Below, piece by piece: positions 11,155 to 17,501 of a DNA stretch of 64,000 bases. The position numbers and the translations under genes were made by a program. The DNA comes from an uncultured Oscillospiraceae bacterium (GTDB taxonomy: Bacteria > Bacillota > Clostridia > Oscillospirales > Oscillospiraceae), in assembly GCA_947631395.1 (NCBI GenBank), contig CANRLF010000001.1, forward strand, positions 124,001 to 188,000, read 5' to 3'. Position 1 is the stretch's first letter. Each line of letters opens with the position of its first letter. Under the pieces are notes generated by a model, which did not search any database, was not told the DNA's origin, and was given only the letters and a program-made list of their open reading frames with translations.

Positions 11155-11826
11155 ATGTTTAAGATTTTGGTGGTGGAGGACGACAGAGACTTAAACCGTA
11201 CGGTGTGCTCTTTTTTGAATGGAAGCGGGTATGAGGCGGTGGGGCGCGTGGACGTTAATTCGGCCTATGACGCCATGTACGGGAACGCGTTCGACCTTAT
11301 TGTTTCGGATATTATGATGCCGGAAACAGACGGCTTTGAGTTCGCGAAAACGGTGCGGGCGCTTAATGAGGATATACCTATACTTTTTATGACGGCGAGG
11401 GACGACTTCGCCTCAAAGCAGAGGGGATACCGGATAGGGATCGACGATTACATGGTAAAGCCGATAGACTTAGACGAGCTTTTCCTGCGCATCGGGGCGC
11501 TTCTGCGGCGGGCGAAGATCGCAAGCTCCCACAAGTTAGAGATAGGGAAGCTCCGGCTTGACATGGACGAGCGCACGGCGGAGTATGACGGGGAGGAGAT
11601 TCCCCTGACGACACGGGAGTTCAATATCCTATATAAGCTCCTGAGCTACCCCGGAAAGACCTTCACGAGGACACAGCTGATGGACGAGTTCTGGGACCCG
11701 GACACGGACACCGCGCCCCGGGCCGTGGATGTATATATGACGAAGCTCCGGGGGAAGTTCGAGGGCTGTGGGGAGTTTGAGATAAGGACCGTCCACGGAC
11801 TGGGATATAAGGCGGTGCTAAAGTGA
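11155..11826 (+). CDS. OmpR/PhoB-family response regulator
   Basis: The 223-residue protein has a receiver domain with the acidic pair VVEDD, the phospho-acceptor Asp near 52 in IVSDIMMPETDG, the Thr of FMTARDD and the Lys of MVKPIDLDEL. A C-terminal winged helix follows (EIPLTTREFNILYKLL ... RAVDVYMTKLRGK ... TVHGLGYKAV). ATG 11155 follows AAGGGGGTCGCTCC. Its stop overlaps the kinase start (GTGA), so the pair is translationally coupled. The likely targets are the local membrane-protein genes that share a promoter element. Confidence 0.95.
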   Translation: MFKILVVEDDRDLNRTVCSFLNGSGYEAVGRVDVNSAYDAMYGNAFDLIVSDIMMPETDGFEFAKTVRALNEDIPILFMTARDDFASKQRGYRIGIDDYMVKPIDLDELFLRIGALLRRAKIASSHKLEIGKLRLDMDERTAEYDGEEIPLTTREFNILYKLLSYPGKTFTRTQLMDEFWDPDTDTAPRAVDVYMTKLRGKFEGCGEFEIRTVHGLGYKAVLK

Positions 11827-12911
11827 AAAAAGCAAAGAGGCATGCGGCCTGGAGCTATTTTATAGCGTTTTTTCTTCTGACGGCATTTGTTATTACCTCC
11901 TCAATGATGCTGTTTCTCAACTATTTCGCGAAGAGCGCCGGGGTGGAGTATACAAGGAGCAATCTTTTTACCGCGGCTCTGGTGACGTTCGGGAACGCCG
12001 TATTTCTGGCGCTGCTGTGCACAGGGATCGACGCGATACGGAGGAAGCTGATGGTGGACAGGCCAGTCAGGGCGATCGTGGAGGCCGCGCGGAGGATAAC
12101 AGGCGGCGACTTTACGGCGAGGATAAGCCCGAAGGCCGCCACGGGGGCCTCAGATGGGTTTGAGGAGATAATTGACTGCTTCAACACCATGGCCGACGAG
12201 CTGGCGGGCGTGGAAACACTGAGGACTGACTTCATAGCCAATGTGTCACACGAGCTTAAAACGCCGCTTGCGGCAATGCAAAACTACGCAACCTTACTCC
12301 AGAGCCCGGAGCTGACAGACGATAAGCGGACAGAGTACGCCAGGGCCATCACGGAGCAGTCACGGCGTCTTGCGGACCTCATTACGAACATCCTGAAGCT
12401 GAACCGGCTGGAAAACCAACAGATATATCCGGCGGCGAAACGGTACAACCTGGGCGAACAGCTGGCAGAGTGCCTGCTGAATTTTGAGAGCACCTGGGAG
12501 AAAAAGGACATCGACATTGAGACGGACCTTGAGGAAGAGGTATTCGTCCGGTCGGACGACGAGCTTTTGTCGCTGGTCTGGAGCAATCTTTTCTCCAACG
12601 CCCTGAAGTTTACGCAAACCGGCGGAACCGTGTCCGTGACGCTGAAAACCGAGGGGGATATGGCCGTGGTCCGGGTGGAGGACACGGGCTGTGGCATATC
12701 GAAGGAAACGGGCAAGCATATCTTTGAGAAATTCTATCAGGGCGACACCTCCCACGCCGCCCAGGGCAACGGACTGGGGCTGGCGCTTGTGAAGCGGGTG
12801 GTGGACATCGTTGGCGGGGAGATTTCCGTGGAGAGCGAGGTGGGGCGGGGGAGCGCCTTTACCGTGAAGCTCAGGAGGGCGGCGGATGGAGAAATTCAAA
12901 AGGGTACTTAA
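11823..12911 (+). CDS. Membrane sensor histidine kinase
   Basis: The 362-residue kinase has two membrane helices near the N-terminus (about 10-32 and 45-70) with only a short extracellular loop, then a HAMP domain (RPVRAIVEAARRITGGDFTA). HisKA follows with the phosphorylated His in NVSHELKTPLAAM (near 142), and HATPase with NALKF, DTGCGI, FEKFYQG and GNGLGLAL. The very small sensor loop is the intramembrane-sensing type, often tuned to envelope stress or to partner membrane proteins. The neighbouring membrane proteins are candidate partners. The start is GTG 11823, overlapping the regulator stop. Confidence 0.94.
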   Translation: MKKAKRHAAWSYFIAFFLLTAFVITSSMMLFLNYFAKSAGVEYTRSNLFTAALVTFGNAVFLALLCTGIDAIRRKLMVDRPVRAIVEAARRITGGDFTARISPKAATGASDGFEEIIDCFNTMADELAGVETLRTDFIANVSHELKTPLAAMQNYATLLQSPELTDDKRTEYARAITEQSRRLADLITNILKLNRLENQQIYPAAKRYNLGEQLAECLLNFESTWEKKDIDIETDLEEEVFVRSDDELLSLVWSNLFSNALKFTQTGGTVSVTLKTEGDMAVVRVEDTGCGISKETGKHIFEKFYQGDTSHAAQGNGLGLALVKRVVDIVGGEISVESEVGRGSAFTVKLRRAADGEIQKGT

Positions 12912-13412
12912 AAGGATATTCTGTCTGCCACCGCTTGCGACGGTCTCGGCGGCGATTTTCGGCTTTGGCTTTGTTATCGCGGTGGCGATATTTAAAATCG
13001 AAAGCCCGGCGGCGCGGTACGCCGCCTATCTGGCATCCGCATACGCGCTGATCGTCACCTGCACGGGGATCGTCTATGTAAAGCCGGCCGTCGTGGCGGT
13101 AAAAAAATATGTTTCCGGGCGTCCACTGATGAAAAAGCTCCGCTCCACAAGGCTTGGCGGAAAATACCTGACCGACGCGCGCTTTAGGGCCGGGGTCTCG
13201 CTTTATCAGGGCTTTTTTATTAATCTACTGTATATTGCCATGAAGCTGGTGTCGGGAATCGTGTATCGCTCAGCCTGGTTCATCGCCCTGGCGGTATACT
13301 ATATCCTGCTGGCTGTGATGCGCCTTATGCTGGCGCGGCGCTTAAACGCCCGGGATGAGGCGGAGGAGCTGCGGCGGTACAGGCTGTGCGGGATAATGCT
13401 TTTGTTTACGAA
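12886..13412 (+). pseudogene. Multi-pass membrane protein of the two-component locus, 5' part (split by an integrated element)
   Basis: From ATG 12886, overlapping the kinase end, the frame encodes about 175 residues with membrane helices (LATVSAAIFGFGFVIAVAIF and others). It then passes at 13412 into unrelated sequence that stops at 13575. Joining 13412 directly to 17114 restores one uninterrupted frame of 915 nt (304 residues): ...RLCGIMLLFTN then QALAGIVIFMVH. The gene was therefore intact before the 3,701-bp insertion. Members of such loci are probably sensor partners or targets of the kinase. The truncated product keeps about four helices and may be non-functional. Confidence 0.88.
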
Positions 13413-13526
13413 CTGTAATCGCAATAAAAATCCGGGCATTTCTAAGTCTTTCCGCCCCTTTTCCCTCCAAAATCAGCAGCTCGTTCCTGCTGTTCGTCCA
13501 CTGTTTCCGCCCACAAATTTCGTCCA

Positions 13527-13547
13527 GTGGGTCAACTTGTGGGTCAG
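13527..13547. repeat. Left-end GTGGGTCA arm-type repeat pair
   Basis: GTGGGTCAA (13527) and GTGGGTCAG (13539), 12 bp apart and about 115 bp inside the left junction. They match the pair near the right end and are likely integrase arm-binding sites. Confidence 0.55.
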
Positions 13548-13748
13548 CCCACTTTCCGGGCGGAAAGTGGGCTGAATGATTCGGATATGTTCGTGAAAAG
13601 AGAGTAGAGCGCACCCATTCAAGGGACTACATAGTAACTCTGAACGGAGGAAAAGTCAAGTCGTCAATAATTGGACGGCTATAAGCAAAAAGAGCCTTTT
13701 TCTCTGCCGTACACCATCAACTACGCCCCCTCAAATTCTGCGGGGGAT

Positions 13749-13811
13749 CCCCTGCAATTTTCAGGAGGGGAATAGTATAAACAAGACGAAAGTCAACAAG
13801 TATAAAGCCCT
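13749..13811 (+). repeat. 63-bp direct repeat inside the element, copy 1
   Basis: This copy and 14201-14263 share GGGGAATAGTAT and CAACAAGTATAAAGCCCT and are alike over 63 nt with about eight differences. They flank the DUF6809 gene. The pattern suggests that a small gene cassette was inserted or duplicated. Confidence 0.7.
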
Positions 13812-13915
13812 TCCAGAAAGTCCGCATCGCATACGGTTTCTCCGTTTTGCCGATACGGTTTCGCTCGACTTTTCCGCACCTCTGCGGTATTGTGTGTTGC
13901 CAAGGAGGGGTGAAG

Positions 13916-14191
13916 ATGGAGAATCTAATAAACGAACTCTATTACGGAAACATCTGCCCAGTTGAACAGATGGGAGGGGCCACACCGGAGAAAAGGAAAA
14001 TTCTGAAACGGATACACGAAAATGAGGAAAAGCTACGGACAACCCTTGATGAGCATGAGAAAGCAATTCTCGACGCAATAAAGGATGATTGCCTCACTGT
14101 ATCTGCTTCAATGGGCGAAAGGCGCTTCCGGGAAGCGTTCACTTTGGGAGCAAGGCTGATGGTCGAAATACTCGCCTCCGGCCCTCAATGA
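13916..14191 (+). CDS. DUF6809-type small protein
   Basis: The 91-residue protein starts MENLINELYYGNICPVEQ and continues with a Glu/Lys-rich helical region (HENEEKLRTTLDEHEKAILDAI). It ends with RRFREAFTLGARLMVEIL, the pattern of a family common on clostridial phages and integrative elements. ATG 13916 is behind AAGGAGGGGTGAAG. The function is unknown. It sits between two copies of a 63-bp direct repeat within the mobile element. Confidence 0.7.
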   Translation: MENLINELYYGNICPVEQMGGATPEKRKILKRIHENEEKLRTTLDEHEKAILDAIKDDCLTVSASMGERRFREAFTLGARLMVEILASGPQ

Positions 14192-14200
14192 TTGCAGGGG

Positions 14201-14263
14201 CCCCCGCAATTTCTGGAAGGGGAATAGTATTAACAAGATGAAAGGCAACAAGTATAAAGCCCT
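14201..14263 (+). repeat. 63-bp direct repeat inside the element, copy 2
   Basis: Second copy of the repeat at 13749-13811. It overlaps the region just after the DUF6809 stop and abuts the end of the MBL-fold gene, which is on the other strand. Confidence 0.7.
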
Positions 14264-14264
14264 C

Positions 14265-15029
14265 TCAGATATGGATTTGAAAGTTTCCGTACTGAAATAA
14301 ACCGCCGCCCTGTCTCAGCTTCCCCTCCTGGGACAGCTCCCGGAACGCCTCTTCGATCCTGCCCACAATGTCTATTGGGACAGAGAGCTCATGGTGGCCG
14401 GGGAGGATGCGGCCGATTTCCAGATTTTGCACCTTCGTGACGGACTGCCAGAACAGCTGCGGGTCCGTAGTCGGATAAAAGGCATCCAAGCAGCCCCGGT
14501 AGATCAGGTCGCCGGAAAATAGAAATTTGCGCTCAGGCTCATAAAAGCAGCAATGTCCGGGGGAGTGTCCGGGCGTATGGATCACCGTGAGCGTCCTGCC
14601 TCCCAAGGGCAGACAGTCGCCATCACGCAGGAGCTCCTGCGGTGTCCCCTTGAACAGCCAATAATCATCAAGGGCAAAGTCCTCCGGGAAATCGCATGGG
14701 CGGCAAGTCAAGTTGTGCTTGACCACCTCTAACGGGATGGGGAACTGCTCCGCCAGCCAATCTTTCTCGGCCTCATGTACAGCGATCCTGTCAAAAAATT
14801 TGTGCCCTCCGACGTGGTCCCAATGGACGTGAGTCGTGACCACAGTCACCGGGAGGTCTGTGAGGCTGTCAACCACCTCCCTGATATTCCCAACGCCCAG
14901 CCCCGTATCAATCAGCAGCGCCCTCTCGGTCCCGCACGCCAGATAGCAGTGCGTCTCCTCCCAGTGCTTATACTCGCTGATTGCAAATGTATCGCTGTCG
15001 ATCGCCTCGACTGTAAACCAAGTACCCAT
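14265..15029 (-). CDS. MBL-fold metallo-hydrolase
   Basis: The 254-residue protein has the metallo-beta-lactamase metal motif THVHWDHVGG (near 66-75, the HxHxDH signature), HTPGHSPGHCC (second His ligand, near 148), FSGDLIYRG (bridging Asp) and LPGHHEL (last His). This is a cytosolic binuclear-metal hydrolase of the glyoxalase II/lactonase-like type; substrate unknown, and antibiotic resistance is not implied. It is cargo on the element, antiparallel to the integrase. ATG 15029 has only a weak ribosome site upstream. Confidence 0.85.
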   Translation of the reverse strand: MGTWFTVEAIDSDTFAISEYKHWEETHCYLACGTERALLIDTGLGVGNIREVVDSLTDLPVTVVTTHVHWDHVGGHKFFDRIAVHEAEKDWLAEQFPIPLEVVKHNLTCRPCDFPEDFALDDYWLFKGTPQELLRDGDCLPLGGRTLTVIHTPGHSPGHCCFYEPERKFLFSGDLIYRGCLDAFYPTTDPQLFWQSVTKVQNLEIGRILPGHHELSVPIDIVGRIEEAFRELSQEGKLRQGGGLFQYGNFQIHI

Positions 15030-15345
15030 AAGAACCCGCCCTCAATTAAGCCACAAGTTGCAGAATCATTGGTTGCCAAGGAAAGTATACCATGTGCGCT
15101 TGAAAAAGTCCACGGTAATTCGATCCCACCAAGCACCGCTGTCCCGCTGTTGCCCCCGTGTGCGGTTTTAGGTCAGAGGGTAGGATAAGAACACCTCCGA
15201 AGTGCCAAAACGCCGTGTTGGGCGTTTGTTGGTGAAGGAGATTCTTCTCTCTGCACATAATCTCCAGCTTTGGGAAGGCAACGCCGAAGCAAATTTCCGG
15301 CCCTTTTCTGAAAAAAAAGGCCGTTCGATTATTGGACAAGATAAA

Positions 15346-15404
15346 GAGCTGCCGTCGTGCGCGACGGCAGCTCGGCCACAAAGCCCCGCAGTGCGGGGCT
15401 TTTC
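15346..15404. terminator. Two consecutive strong hairpins upstream of the integrase
   Basis: GAGCTGCCGTCG (15346-15357) pairs perfectly with CGACGGCAGCTC (15362-15373). AAGCCCCGC (15381-15389) pairs with GCGGGGCTT (15393-15401), followed by TTT. They insulate the integrase region from transcription entering from the left. Confidence 0.7.
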
Positions 15405-15557
15405 TACGTTTCGCCTAGGCAGTCGGTTTTGAGGCAGCGGTGCGATTTAGGCCGTCGGTTAGAACGGTTTTGTCAGCAATTCCAAGTAAAAATCCGCAGT
15501 CATAAGGTGGTCGTGAACGCAGAGAGGAAAACTCTCCCGTTTGGGAGAGGCAAGCAT

Positions 15558-15602
15558 CGCATTTGTCTGTACACCGGGCGAGCCCGGCGCCTGCCAAATG
15601 CG
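15558..15602 (+). ncRNA. Nested stem-loop in the integrase leader
   Basis: CGCATTTG (15558-15565) pairs with CAAATGCG (15595-15602), enclosing an inner perfect stem CCGGGC/GCCCGG (15574-15587). Another stem, CTCTCCC/GGGAGAG, lies just upstream. About 130 bp before the integrase start, this could be a structured leader, or DNA sites for the integrase. Its role is inferred. Confidence 0.4.
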
Positions 15603-15731
15603 TTTCCGGGCGGGAGCCCAGACCCACTGAGGGCGAAAAGTTATCCGTTTGTACACAATTTCCCCCTGGCTATTTGGCGCGGAAGATGGTATGTTGTGTG
15701 TTTGCCAAAGGGCAGAAAGGAGGCACACAGC

Positions 15732-16880
15732 ATTAGCAAACGCAGAGCCAACGGCGAGGGGAATATACGAAAGCGGCCGGACGGGAGATGGGAAGGAAGG
15801 TATGTCGCCGGGTATGACGAGCACGGAAAGGCTATTCGCAAGAATGTCCTCGGCAGGACCCAGGCGGAGGTCAAGGAGAAGCTGAAAAGGGCAATCCGGG
15901 AATGCACCGAGATCGACGTTGAGAAAGCCGAGGAATATACAGTGGGCAGTTGGGTAAGGACATGGTATGAGACATACTCTAAACCACACGTCAGGGAGAG
16001 TACGCAGAGATTCTACGAGGATTACATCGAACACCACATCGTGCCGAGGATTGGAAACATCAAACTCGCCAAGCTCACCGGGCGAGACATACAGAAGATG
16101 TACAACGATGTCAAGGCCAACGGACGGATAAGGAAAAAAGCGGATGGGGACACCGGCATGAGCGCAAGTTACGTTCGTGGCCTGCACATGATGTTTCACA
16201 ACTGCATGGGACGTGCGGTGAAGGAAAGGCTGATCCTGCGAAACCCGACAGAAGATTGCATTGTGCCGAAGATAGAGAAGAAAGAAATGCACATCCTGCG
16301 CCCGGAGGACATCAGTACCTACCTCAGAGAAGCAGATAAACGGGGCGTCCTGGCAATGTTCTTCCTCGAATTAACCACCGGCCTACGCAAAGGAGAACTT
16401 GTCGCCCTTCTTTGGAGCGACCTCGATGAACAGTCGATGACCCTGAACGTTTGCAAACAAGCCGTCAGAGTCAAGGGCGGAGGCGTGAAGGTCACACGTC
16501 CCAAGACGGAAACCTCCATCCGCAGAATCTCGCTATCACAGGAAACAGTGGACATTCTCAAAAAGGAGCATGAAAAACACCCAAACATCGAATACATGTT
16601 CCCCTCCCCGGTAACTCTCGGCATGTACTACCCCGACTCCGTGACCGCTATCCACAACAAAATCCTCAAATCCGCCGGTCTCCCGCACATCCGCCTGCAC
16701 GACCTCCGCCACACCTACGCCACCTTGGCGCTCCAGAACGGTGTTGACGTTAAAACCGTCTCCAGCATCCTCGGCCACTACGACGCCGGCTTCACCCTCC
16801 GCACCTACACCCACGTCACCACAAAAATGCAAGAAGAAGCCGCGGCCACCATGGGCAAGCTGATTGGGGCGAATGTATGA
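15732..16880 (+). CDS. Tyrosine-type integrase, apparent AUU start codon
   Basis: This 382-residue phage-type integrase has an AP2-like arm-binding N-terminus (KRRANGEGNIRKRPDGRWEG), a SAM-like core-binding domain (about 55-165) and a catalytic domain with Arg in TTGLRKGEL (near 218), HDLRHTYATL (near 322), LGH and the Tyr nucleophile in LRTYTHV (near 358). The family normally starts Met-(S/A)-K-R-R-A-N-G-E-G; here that position is ATT at 15732, 8 nt after a perfect GAAAGGAGG. There is no ATG near it; TTG at about 15702 (LPKGRKEAHS) is the main alternative but lacks a ribosome site. It would integrate and excise the surrounding element at a tRNA-Met-type site. Confidence 0.9.
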   Translation: MSKRRANGEGNIRKRPDGRWEGRYVAGYDEHGKAIRKNVLGRTQAEVKEKLKRAIRECTEIDVEKAEEYTVGSWVRTWYETYSKPHVRESTQRFYEDYIEHHIVPRIGNIKLAKLTGRDIQKMYNDVKANGRIRKKADGDTGMSASYVRGLHMMFHNCMGRAVKERLILRNPTEDCIVPKIEKKEMHILRPEDISTYLREADKRGVLAMFFLELTTGLRKGELVALLWSDLDEQSMTLNVCKQAVRVKGGGVKVTRPKTETSIRRISLSQETVDILKKEHEKHPNIEYMFPSPVTLGMYYPDSVTAIHNKILKSAGLPHIRLHDLRHTYATLALQNGVDVKTVSSILGHYDAGFTLRTYTHVTTKMQEEAAATMGKLIGANV

Positions 16881-16906
16881 GCAAAATTTACGTAGCCTTA
16901 TCTAAA

Positions 16907-16942
16907 AAAAGGCCGCGGGACACAAACTCCCACGGCTTTATG
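16907..16942. terminator. Terminator after the integrase
   Basis: AAAAAAAGGCCGCGGGA and TCCCACGGCTTTA pair with one bulge around a short loop. The flanking A and T tracts allow termination in either direction. Confidence 0.6.
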
Positions 16943-16973
16943 CTATCCCGTCCTTTCCGCTCCAGATTCCCGT

Positions 16974-16993
16974 TGGGGTCAGAAGTGGGTCAG
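16974..16993. repeat. Right-end GTGGGTCA arm-type repeat pair
   Basis: TGGGGTCAG (16974) and GTGGGTCAG (16985), 11 bp apart, mirror the left-end pair and lie about 120 bp inside the right junction. They are probable integrase arm sites. Confidence 0.55.
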
Positions 16994-17030
16994 AAAAACA
17001 TCAGCGTCAACCAAACCAGCCAAAAAAGTA

Positions 17031-17061
17031 CCGGATTTCCCGATTTTCTCAGGAAATCCGG
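17031..17061. other. Perfect 10-bp hairpin next to the tRNA-derived attachment end
   Basis: CCGGATTTCC (17031-17040) and GGAAATCCGG (17052-17061) with an 11-nt loop. Without a T-tract it is more likely an attachment-site structure or transcription insulator than a simple terminator. Confidence 0.5.
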
Positions 17062-17068
17062 CGGGTAT

Positions 17069-17113
17069 TGGAGCTGGATGCGAGATTCGAACTCGCGACC
17101 TCATGATTATGAA
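17069..17113 (-). tRNA. 3' half of a tRNA-Met (CAU) gene, in the element's attachment end
   Basis: Reverse strand: TTCATAA (loop with anticodon CAT), TCATG (anticodon stem), AGGTC (variable), GCGAG-TTCGAAT-CTCGC (T arm), ATCCAGC (acceptor), T and CCA. Everything 5' of the loop is replaced by host membrane-protein sequence, so it is not a working tRNA. This is what a tRNA-targeting element carries to restore its normal target on integration. Confidence 0.85.
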
Positions 17114-17501
17114 TCAGGCGCTCGCGGGGATCGTGATATTCATGGTGCATCAAAATCGCGGGTTTGAGTATCCGGGGTTGCTAATCTACGCCATGGCCGC
17201 CTATTCCTTTTACGCCGTCACCGTTGCCATTATCAACATCGTTAAGACCAGGCGGCACAACAGCCCCGTGCTTTCGGCGGCTAAGGCTATCAATCTTGTG
17301 GCGGCGCTGGTGTCGATCCTGTCTCTTGAGACCGCAATGCTGGCCCAGTTCGGCGGGGACGACGACCCAATGTTCCGCAGGGCCATGACCGGAGCGACAG
17401 GAGGCGGCGTTTGCACAATCGTCATCGGAATGGCGATATATATGATCTGGCGGGCAAATAAAAATCTTAAAAAGCTCCAAATTAATAATTCTCAAACATA
17501 A
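17114..17501 (+). pseudogene. Multi-pass membrane protein, 3' part (split by the element)
   Basis: Residues QALAGIVIFMVHQ to the stop at 17501 continue exactly in frame from 13412. An ATG triplet supplied by the element's tRNA sequence (17109) gives an accidental open frame, MNQALAG, but no ribosome site precedes it. It has three or four hydrophobic helices (LIYAMAAYSFYAVTVAIINI, VAALVSILSLETAMLAQFG, GVCTIVIGMAIYMIW). It is the C-terminal 129 residues of the 304-residue ancestral protein. Confidence 0.88.

Follow-up and report, generated by a model that had tools for sequence, protein, structure and literature searches.

We describe a 3,701-bp element in the genome of an uncultured Oscillospiraceae bacterium that very probably inserted off-target: the tyrosine integrase of an element specific for the anticodon loop of tRNA-Thr(CGT) appears to have used a secondary attachment site (attB) inside a membrane-protein gene. 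The window analysed is the whole stretch of 64,000 nucleotides from positions 124,001 to 188,000 of contig CANRLF010000001.1 (G000:C1:124001-188000 in our numbering), and its source genome is a 2.57-Mb draft of 62 contigs. The features that carry the argument are these, in window coordinates:

12886..13405, plus strand: 5' part of the host gene; the frame is restored on joining, and relatives have the homologous gene without a break
13406..13412: left junction, 7-bp overlap TTACGAA; the C at 13409 derives from the element (none of 27 aligned homologs has ACG)
13413..17106, plus strand: element body (unit 13406-17106, 3,701 bp); sister units are bounded by the same kind of core, and the copy in a second record, L112, is identical except at 17110
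17069..17113, minus strand: 3' half of tRNA-Thr(CGT) carried by the element, from anticodon loop to CCA, with a host-derived T at 17110; it matches the genome's own tRNA-Thr (C26:19822-19897) except for the loop base
17107..17113: right junction, 7-bp overlap TTATGAA, in which ATG is the host codon; T/C at 17110 is the sole difference from L112 over 3,785 bp
17107..17123, minus strand: look-alike GAGCGCCTGATTCATAA, identical to tRNA-Thr(CGT) at 16 of 17 bases by mismatch count; 17069-17123 forms a 55-nt hybrid
17114..17501, plus strand: 3' part of the host gene, identified by the joined frame and by relatives

A tRNA-Thr element within a membrane-protein gene

The gene opens a frame at 12886, stops at 13405-13412 and continues at 17107-17114. 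Joining 13412 to 17114 gives an open frame of 304 residues followed by a stop; the split and the element length had been recognised in an earlier note on this DNA, and both hold. The joined protein was matched in 33 of 60 genomes searched, its own counted, and 27 of the 30 aligned loci (L020-L049, one from the own genome) cover the insertion site. All 12 closest homologs (L020-L031, 69-79% identity; 11 other genomes of the genus and one from another family of the order) are continuous across the site and read ...M-N-Q-A-L.... Homologs of the response regulator and histidine kinase lie upstream of the gene in all 12 and a homolog of the next downstream gene in eight, the loci being short. Thus, the split came from insertion of the 3,701-bp unit.

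The right end, read on the minus strand, is TTCATAATCATGAGGTCGCGAGTTCGAATCTCGCATCCAGCTCCA. Its first 34 bases, searched against the whole genome with up to three mismatches, occur in four places: the window and three places with TTCGTAATCATGAGG. One of the three is the intact tRNA-Thr with anticodon CGT at C26:19822-19897; a second, 7,987 bp from it on that contig, is a tandem junction. No tRNA-Met was matched anywhere in the genome at this threshold; tRNA-Thr(CGT) was the only tRNA found. The earlier note was therefore right that the right end carries a tRNA 3' half (17069-17113, minus strand) and wrong in naming it tRNA-Met, and the genome search that it suggested for an intact tRNA-Met leads instead to an intact tRNA-Thr(CGT). 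Its view that a tRNA-Met with a different loop would speak against the event misfires, for the tRNA was misnamed and the event is not thereby false. The primary site on C26 is present and occupied by sister elements arranged in tandem. Of 34 genomes of the genus, 13 have this tRNA-Thr or a version of it with one change; among them is G033, with a best integrase match of just 66%. All 13 near-identical copies (L082-L094) have a C-U mismatch in the anticodon stem (CCTGA/TCATG).

The two junctions read GTTTACGAACTG on the left and GATTATGAATCAGG on the right, with GAA common to both, as had been reported. On the plus strand of the window the anticodon loop of tRNA-Thr(CGT) is TTACGAA. The codon at the site is ATG in 18 of the 27 aligned homologs and ACG in none, and TTCGTAA is present in 23 of the 23 CGT-class right ends besides the window, in a search whose pattern admitted G or A; the C at 13409 therefore comes from the element and the T at 17110 from the host. 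This reverses the earlier assignment of the diagnostic base. A/T at the right end is host sequence, CAT being the gene's ATG codon, and G/C at the left end is the element's overlap; relatives do have a continuous gene at the site, as predicted, but not the predicted ACG. At both junctions the switch of parent falls in the same 3 bp, TTA (left: 13406-13408), at the edge of the loop. The pre-insertion host site was most likely TGATTCATAA. Given this parentage, TGATTCGTAA, taken by the earlier note for the joined site, is a hybrid product of recombination, and the supposed tRNA-Met anticodon is the host's methionine codon.

The single mismatch between GAGCGCCTGATTCATAA and tRNA-Thr(CGT) falls in a 17-base stretch made of the left arm and the loop. 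When this 17-mer was written as GAGCGCCTGATTCRTAA, with R at the variable base, the whole genome held two perfect matches, tRNA-Thr(CGT) and the interrupted gene; the next-best sites were three at two mismatches, one of them in a paralogous gene on C2. With up to three mismatches, 15 sites were found against one for the reversed-pattern control. In the window alone, 28 of 100 shuffles gave at least one site at up to three mismatches, so that the weight rests on the exactness of the match. After insertion, with a right arm contributed by the element, the 55 nt of 17069-17123 match positions 22-76 of tRNA-Thr at 98% identity; the insertion has made the site far more tRNA-like than before.

We propose that the usual place of recombination for this integrase is the anticodon loop of tRNA-Thr(CGT), 7 bp long and with TTCGTAA as the overlap, and that the conserved stretch encoding ...F-M-N-Q-A-L..., one base off the tRNA on the minus strand, would have served as the secondary attB. 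Strand exchange would occur at the border of the 7-bp overlap. Because TTATGAA in the host and TTACGAA in the element differ by one base, each junction inherited the overlap of a different parent, the element's on the left and the host's on the right; such a one-base difference between the two ends is the expected outcome of a 7-bp staggered exchange after replication of one product strand. The insertion displaced no tRNA and truncated the gene instead, and the 55-nt near-copy of tRNA-Thr at the right junction might offer a new attachment site. For an excised circle, the predicted joined site is CAGTTCRTAATCATGAGG and the predicted circle-junction sequence is CAGTTC[A/G]TAATCATGAGG; the presence of both bases at the variable position would indicate that the element leaves the off-target site with exchange of the overlap.

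The element family and its regular sites

The integrase has 15 matches at E<=1e-5 in its own genome, itself included, and five of the others are at least 87% identical to it. A scan of public genome contigs returned 57 loci; all but two of these, 55 in number, come from records with the name 'Lapin', which by that name would be from rabbit gut; a scan of viral contigs returned no relative. Right ends were read for the 60 copies whose C-terminus was usable, drawn from the public loci, those of the own genome and the window: 23 carry TTCGTAATCATGAGG, nine carry TTTGTAATCAGCAGG, which is tRNA-Thr(TGT) followed by tRNA-Tyr, three are of other tRNA-Thr types (64-67% identity), seven carry TTATTCCA, one is the window and 17 were unresolved. 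The flanks of the 33 CGT- or TGT-type right ends, window included, were classed by eye. Sixteen lie in a complete tRNA-Thr with cores TTCGTAA or TTTGTAA, 14 abut the left end of another element (including L112, the same insertion as in the window), two have unassigned flanks (L052, L133), and one, that of the window, lies in a protein gene. The element itself carries the 3' half, so that this reading is not biased towards tRNA targets; the 27 other copies could hide further off-target cases.

From one core to the next, the units span 2,657 to 13,715 bp; the largest is composite and includes both an inner integrase and a TTATTCCA end. A DUF6809 gene is present in 12 of 13 units with a family integrase, window included; its distance to the left end is 408-527 bp in 11 of these units and about 1,299 bp in L143. 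Both genes are found together in seven units of 2,657-2,867 bp. Of 34 genus genomes, the 21 that have DUF6809 are also the 21 that have the integrase family, with copy numbers that are only weakly correlated (Spearman 0.45). Among 79 of the 93 DUF6809 matches, the 14 weakest being left out, 21 have a listed integrase no more than 5 kb away, and none of ten sampled loci away from integrases has an integrase homolog within about 4 kb, one of the ten being a decayed element end. We therefore rejected DUF6809 as a strict partner of the integrase, most of its copies lying away from the listed ones; it is a regular part of these elements and not exclusive to them. A quick integrase tree, in which right-end types are partly intermixed at low support, is the basis for no claim of target switching.

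The TTATTCCA ends were first taken for a further target or a cassette site. The motif recurs in 21 of 34 genus genomes and, with varied terminator-like hairpins after it and in one case a tRNA-Leu about 130 bp away, rather resembles the end of another element family. The motif TAGGAKTTTTAACCACTTATTCCA is found in 21 of 34 genus genomes, clustered and followed by terminator-like hairpins (for example G022:C11, G001:C47, G028:C8 and own C8:32888). It probably marks the end of another element family, possibly one located at tRNA CCA ends.

Other family loci in the same genome differ in content. At L051:3792-7739 (own C48) the right end of a tRNA-Thr(TGT) sister element consists of the tRNA-Thr 3' half plus a complete tRNA-Tyr, which is present there twice. 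The sister element in tRNA-Thr(CGT) at L050:10630-18617 (own C26) encodes a WYL regulator, an M48-peptidase protein that matches BnzB (PADLOC 3.9e-37), a TerB protein and a PDC-M09A match, a set that we take to be possibly a Bunzi-like defence cassette. The tandem junction at L221:2940-2990 (own C5), also of tRNA-Thr(TGT) type, is decayed and has neither a tRNA nor a related integrase nearby.

A second record with a stacked element

L112 (CANRJC010000038.1, 6,825 bp) belongs to a metagenome-assembled genome (MAG) labelled Phascolarctobacterium, in which it is probably misbinned. The record starts inside the same gene, with 74 bp of host flank identical to the window, and runs into the same element. 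There the element's right end reads CGT, and a second element adjoins it with its left end. This second element encodes an 84-residue protein without a Pfam family, a Rep protein (PF02407 and PF00910), an HTH_17 protein and an integrase of its own, which shares 26% identity with the first and is truncated where the contig stops. In L121, the tRNA-Thr(CGT) contains a homologous pair (83% over 4.5 kb) with the two elements in the same order. Thus, both elements use the core, and the off-target site hosts an array. The Rep-encoding element (L112:3783-6825, cut, and L121:3520-6777) shares the tRNA-Thr core with an integrase 26-27% identical to that of the family. In the literature searched, mostly the beginnings of abstracts, we found no description of an off-target site in a coding sequence at which two different elements are stacked.

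The host ATG at the right end of the window fits either order of events, later arrival of the second element or joint arrival. One reading with later arrival, about which we are somewhat more doubtful than convinced, is that the off-target insertion founded a new landing pad: a look-alike with one arm (10 bp plus loop) would have become a near-perfect mimic of tRNA-Thr (55 nt, 98%), and the unrelated element of L112 would then have inserted there. The alternative, rather unlikely in our estimate, is that a pre-formed array of the window element and the Rep element moved jointly to the gene and that the Rep element was later excised in the window strain. The homologous pair at tRNA-Thr(CGT) in L121 speaks for a joint move, and the junction bases suit it equally well; it requires one extra excision, however, the L112 contig ends before the right junction, and a search for the right host flank in L112's genome (G060), run without a positive control, gave no match.

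Weighing the off-target reading

That a tRNA-targeting integrase acted at a look-alike in a protein gene, as the earlier note proposed, is strongly supported by the integrase frame, the primary target, the sister elements, the intact relatives and the segregation of the overlap bases. Several points weigh against it. The 17-mer GAGCGCCTGATTCRTAA was picked only after the site had been seen. A symmetric 17-bp stem-loop (5+7+5), CCTGATTCRTAATCATG, has four mismatches to the empty host site, of which three fall in the right arm and one in the overlap; if R is allowed at the latter, three mismatches are left, as at eight other sites in the genome. The reversed control of CCTGATTCRTAATCATG gave five sites, and the exact match in the window is the recombinant junction. 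By this comparison one arm alone mimics the tRNA, and similarity by itself would not have predicted the site. The genome is a draft, and the relatives compared are not of the same species, the nearest being about 79% identical in the protein. Activity of the integrase, in integration and excision alike, is predicted only, and the start codon at the position of the homologous start is ATT.

Three other explanations are less probable than joint arrival of the two elements. The gene might be a regular alternative target, perhaps with a regulatory role for the insertion; in favour of this, the paralogous gene on C2 also has a near match, AAGCGCCTGGTTCATAA, with two mismatches, so that the motif belongs to the protein family. 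But none of the 33 resolved right ends lies in the gene other than those of the window and of L112, which is the same event, and none of 12 close homologs is interrupted at the site, which makes this explanation very improbable. Still less probable is an assembly or binning artefact that fused an element copy to the gene. The family is multi-copy, the genome is a draft and L112 sits in a MAG to which it probably does not belong, but the left junction recurs in that second record with its identical 74-bp host flank, frame and gene order are kept at both junctions, and a chimera does not predict an overlap base of host type at one end and of element type at the other. The earlier note's own account, an element from a tRNA-Met (CAT) site and a host gene with ACG, is the least credible: the right junction does read TTCATAA, but the 3' half matches tRNA-Thr(CGT), no tRNA-Met was matched in the genome, all 23 other CGT-class right ends have CGT, ACG occurs in none of 27 homologs, and the L112 copy has CGT at that position, where the base could also stem from the second element.

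Element content and the interrupted locus

Other features of the element and its surroundings are:

11155..12911, plus strand: the pair of response regulator and histidine kinase that lies upstream of the host gene; synteny in relatives, kinase PF02518 and PF00512
13728..13817, plus strand: first copy of a direct repeat of about 90 bp that flanks the DUF6809 gene, with 81% identity to 14182-14269 (secondary matches in blastn of the window against L112)
13916..14191, plus strand: DUF6809 (PF20648) gene, 91 aa, Pfam E 2.3e-21
14182..14269, plus strand: direct repeat copy 2, from the same secondary matches
14265..15029, minus strand: cargo MBL-fold hydrolase, 254 aa, PF00753 E 4.6e-25
15732..16880, plus strand: tyrosine integrase, 382 aa from the homologous start, with a catalytic domain (PF00589 4.2e-21) and a SAM-like domain (PF14659 8e-16)

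The integrase frame has no internal stop and contains the motifs TGLRKGE at 216, HDLRHT at 323 and LGHYDAGFTLRTYTHV at 347, whose positions we take to be those of the catalytic residues. At the homologous start (15732) the codon is ATT where homologs have ATG, and the frame is open upstream to 15357, so that the start codon and expression are uncertain. A Pfam scan of 13 element open reading frames (ORFs) of at least 60 aa, a subset of all ORFs, gave three matches: DUF6809, the MBL-fold hydrolase and the integrase. Neither relaxase or conjugation genes, as an integrative and conjugative (ICE) or mobilizable element would have, nor phage structural, packaging or replication genes, as in a prophage or satellite, were found among these 13; a MobL relaxase is present at another family locus, L051. 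The best NCBIfam score of the hydrolase was 56 bits against a cut-off of 200.8, and among the best 25 of 33 families it stayed under the curated cut-off of every model; for this reason we do not call it a resistance gene. The predicted DUF6809 model (mean pLDDT 74.5, pTM 0.45) is all-helical, with three helices and no strands. It therefore contains no winged helix and lends no support to DUF6809 as an excisionase of that fold.

What remains of the interrupted gene is 173 codons followed by element sequence, in a frame open up to 13575, and a 132-codon frame that starts just within the right end of the element; the function of the membrane protein has presumably been lost. In one relative, G012, only residues 80-159 of the joined protein are matched, which suggests that the gene can be lost. 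Three truncated homologs (L045, L047, L038) were inspected for att sequences and had none. The earlier description of a disrupted two-component locus stands in that the membrane-protein gene beside the regulator-kinase pair is split; the response regulator and kinase frames themselves are both uninterrupted.

Discussion

The mechanism itself is already known: ICEBs1 uses secondary sites, SGI1 forms arrays at one, and the HE-PICI satellites include natural off-target integrations. In Bacillus subtilis, the attB of ICEBs1 is a stem-loop of 17 bp within a tRNA gene, its 5-bp arms enclosing a 7-bp spacer; the secondary sites in protein genes have 2-12 mismatches, and mismatches at the crossover are resolved by replication, which leaves the left and right ends different (PMC3715440). 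The element described here resembles it in the stem-loop tRNA target, the secondary site in a protein gene and the ends that differ in the overlap base. ICEBs1, however, is a 20-kb conjugative element of tRNA-Leu whose secondary sites were found by selection, mostly in cells lacking attB (PMC3715440), whereas ours has 3.7 kb and three recognised genes, belongs to tRNA-Thr, and lies in a natural genome in which the primary site is present with sister elements. SGI1 likewise has a second attB outside its primary gene and forms tandem arrays there, but these are arrays of the same island, with the 3' end of thdF as primary site and an intergenic second site (PMC2297512); here two different elements, with integrases 26% identical, occupy a site in a coding sequence. 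Secondary attachment of ICEBs1 and SGI1 was studied experimentally, often with cells lacking attB (PMC3715440, PMC2297512).

For HE-PICI satellites, natural chromosomal integrations were also read as off-target from integrase phylogeny and att alignment, in 28 cases, but their primary targets are late genes of prophages and not tRNA genes (PMC10111431). The anticodon-loop islands of Islander share the crossover at the anticodon loop, the carried tDNA fragment and the tandem arrays, of which those of three or more units number four (PMC4383910). Islander starts from a tDNA and its cognate fragment (PMC4383910). An off-target case like that of the window would thus probably fall outside its search. 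Overlaps, stem-loops and secondary sites have been reviewed (PMC8371274). The same literature, seen mostly as abstract beginnings, yielded no description of the tRNA-Thr element family or its DUF6809 component, and the word DUF6809 occurred in none of the papers searched.

The present case is a natural one in which single bases record the strand exchange, and for which the primary site, the donor family, uninterrupted relatives and a second record with a stacked element are all at hand. The compact elements to which it belongs, with an integrase and DUF6809 in units from 2.7 kb, are recurrent in Oscillospiraceae genomes, and the spread of tRNA-specific elements to non-tRNA loci becomes a testable question. 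If the off-target insertion did found a landing pad, communities of tRNA-specific elements could colonise protein genes in two steps, and the swapped overlap base (CGT to CAT) could alter the core on excision, which would open a path to a new target specificity.

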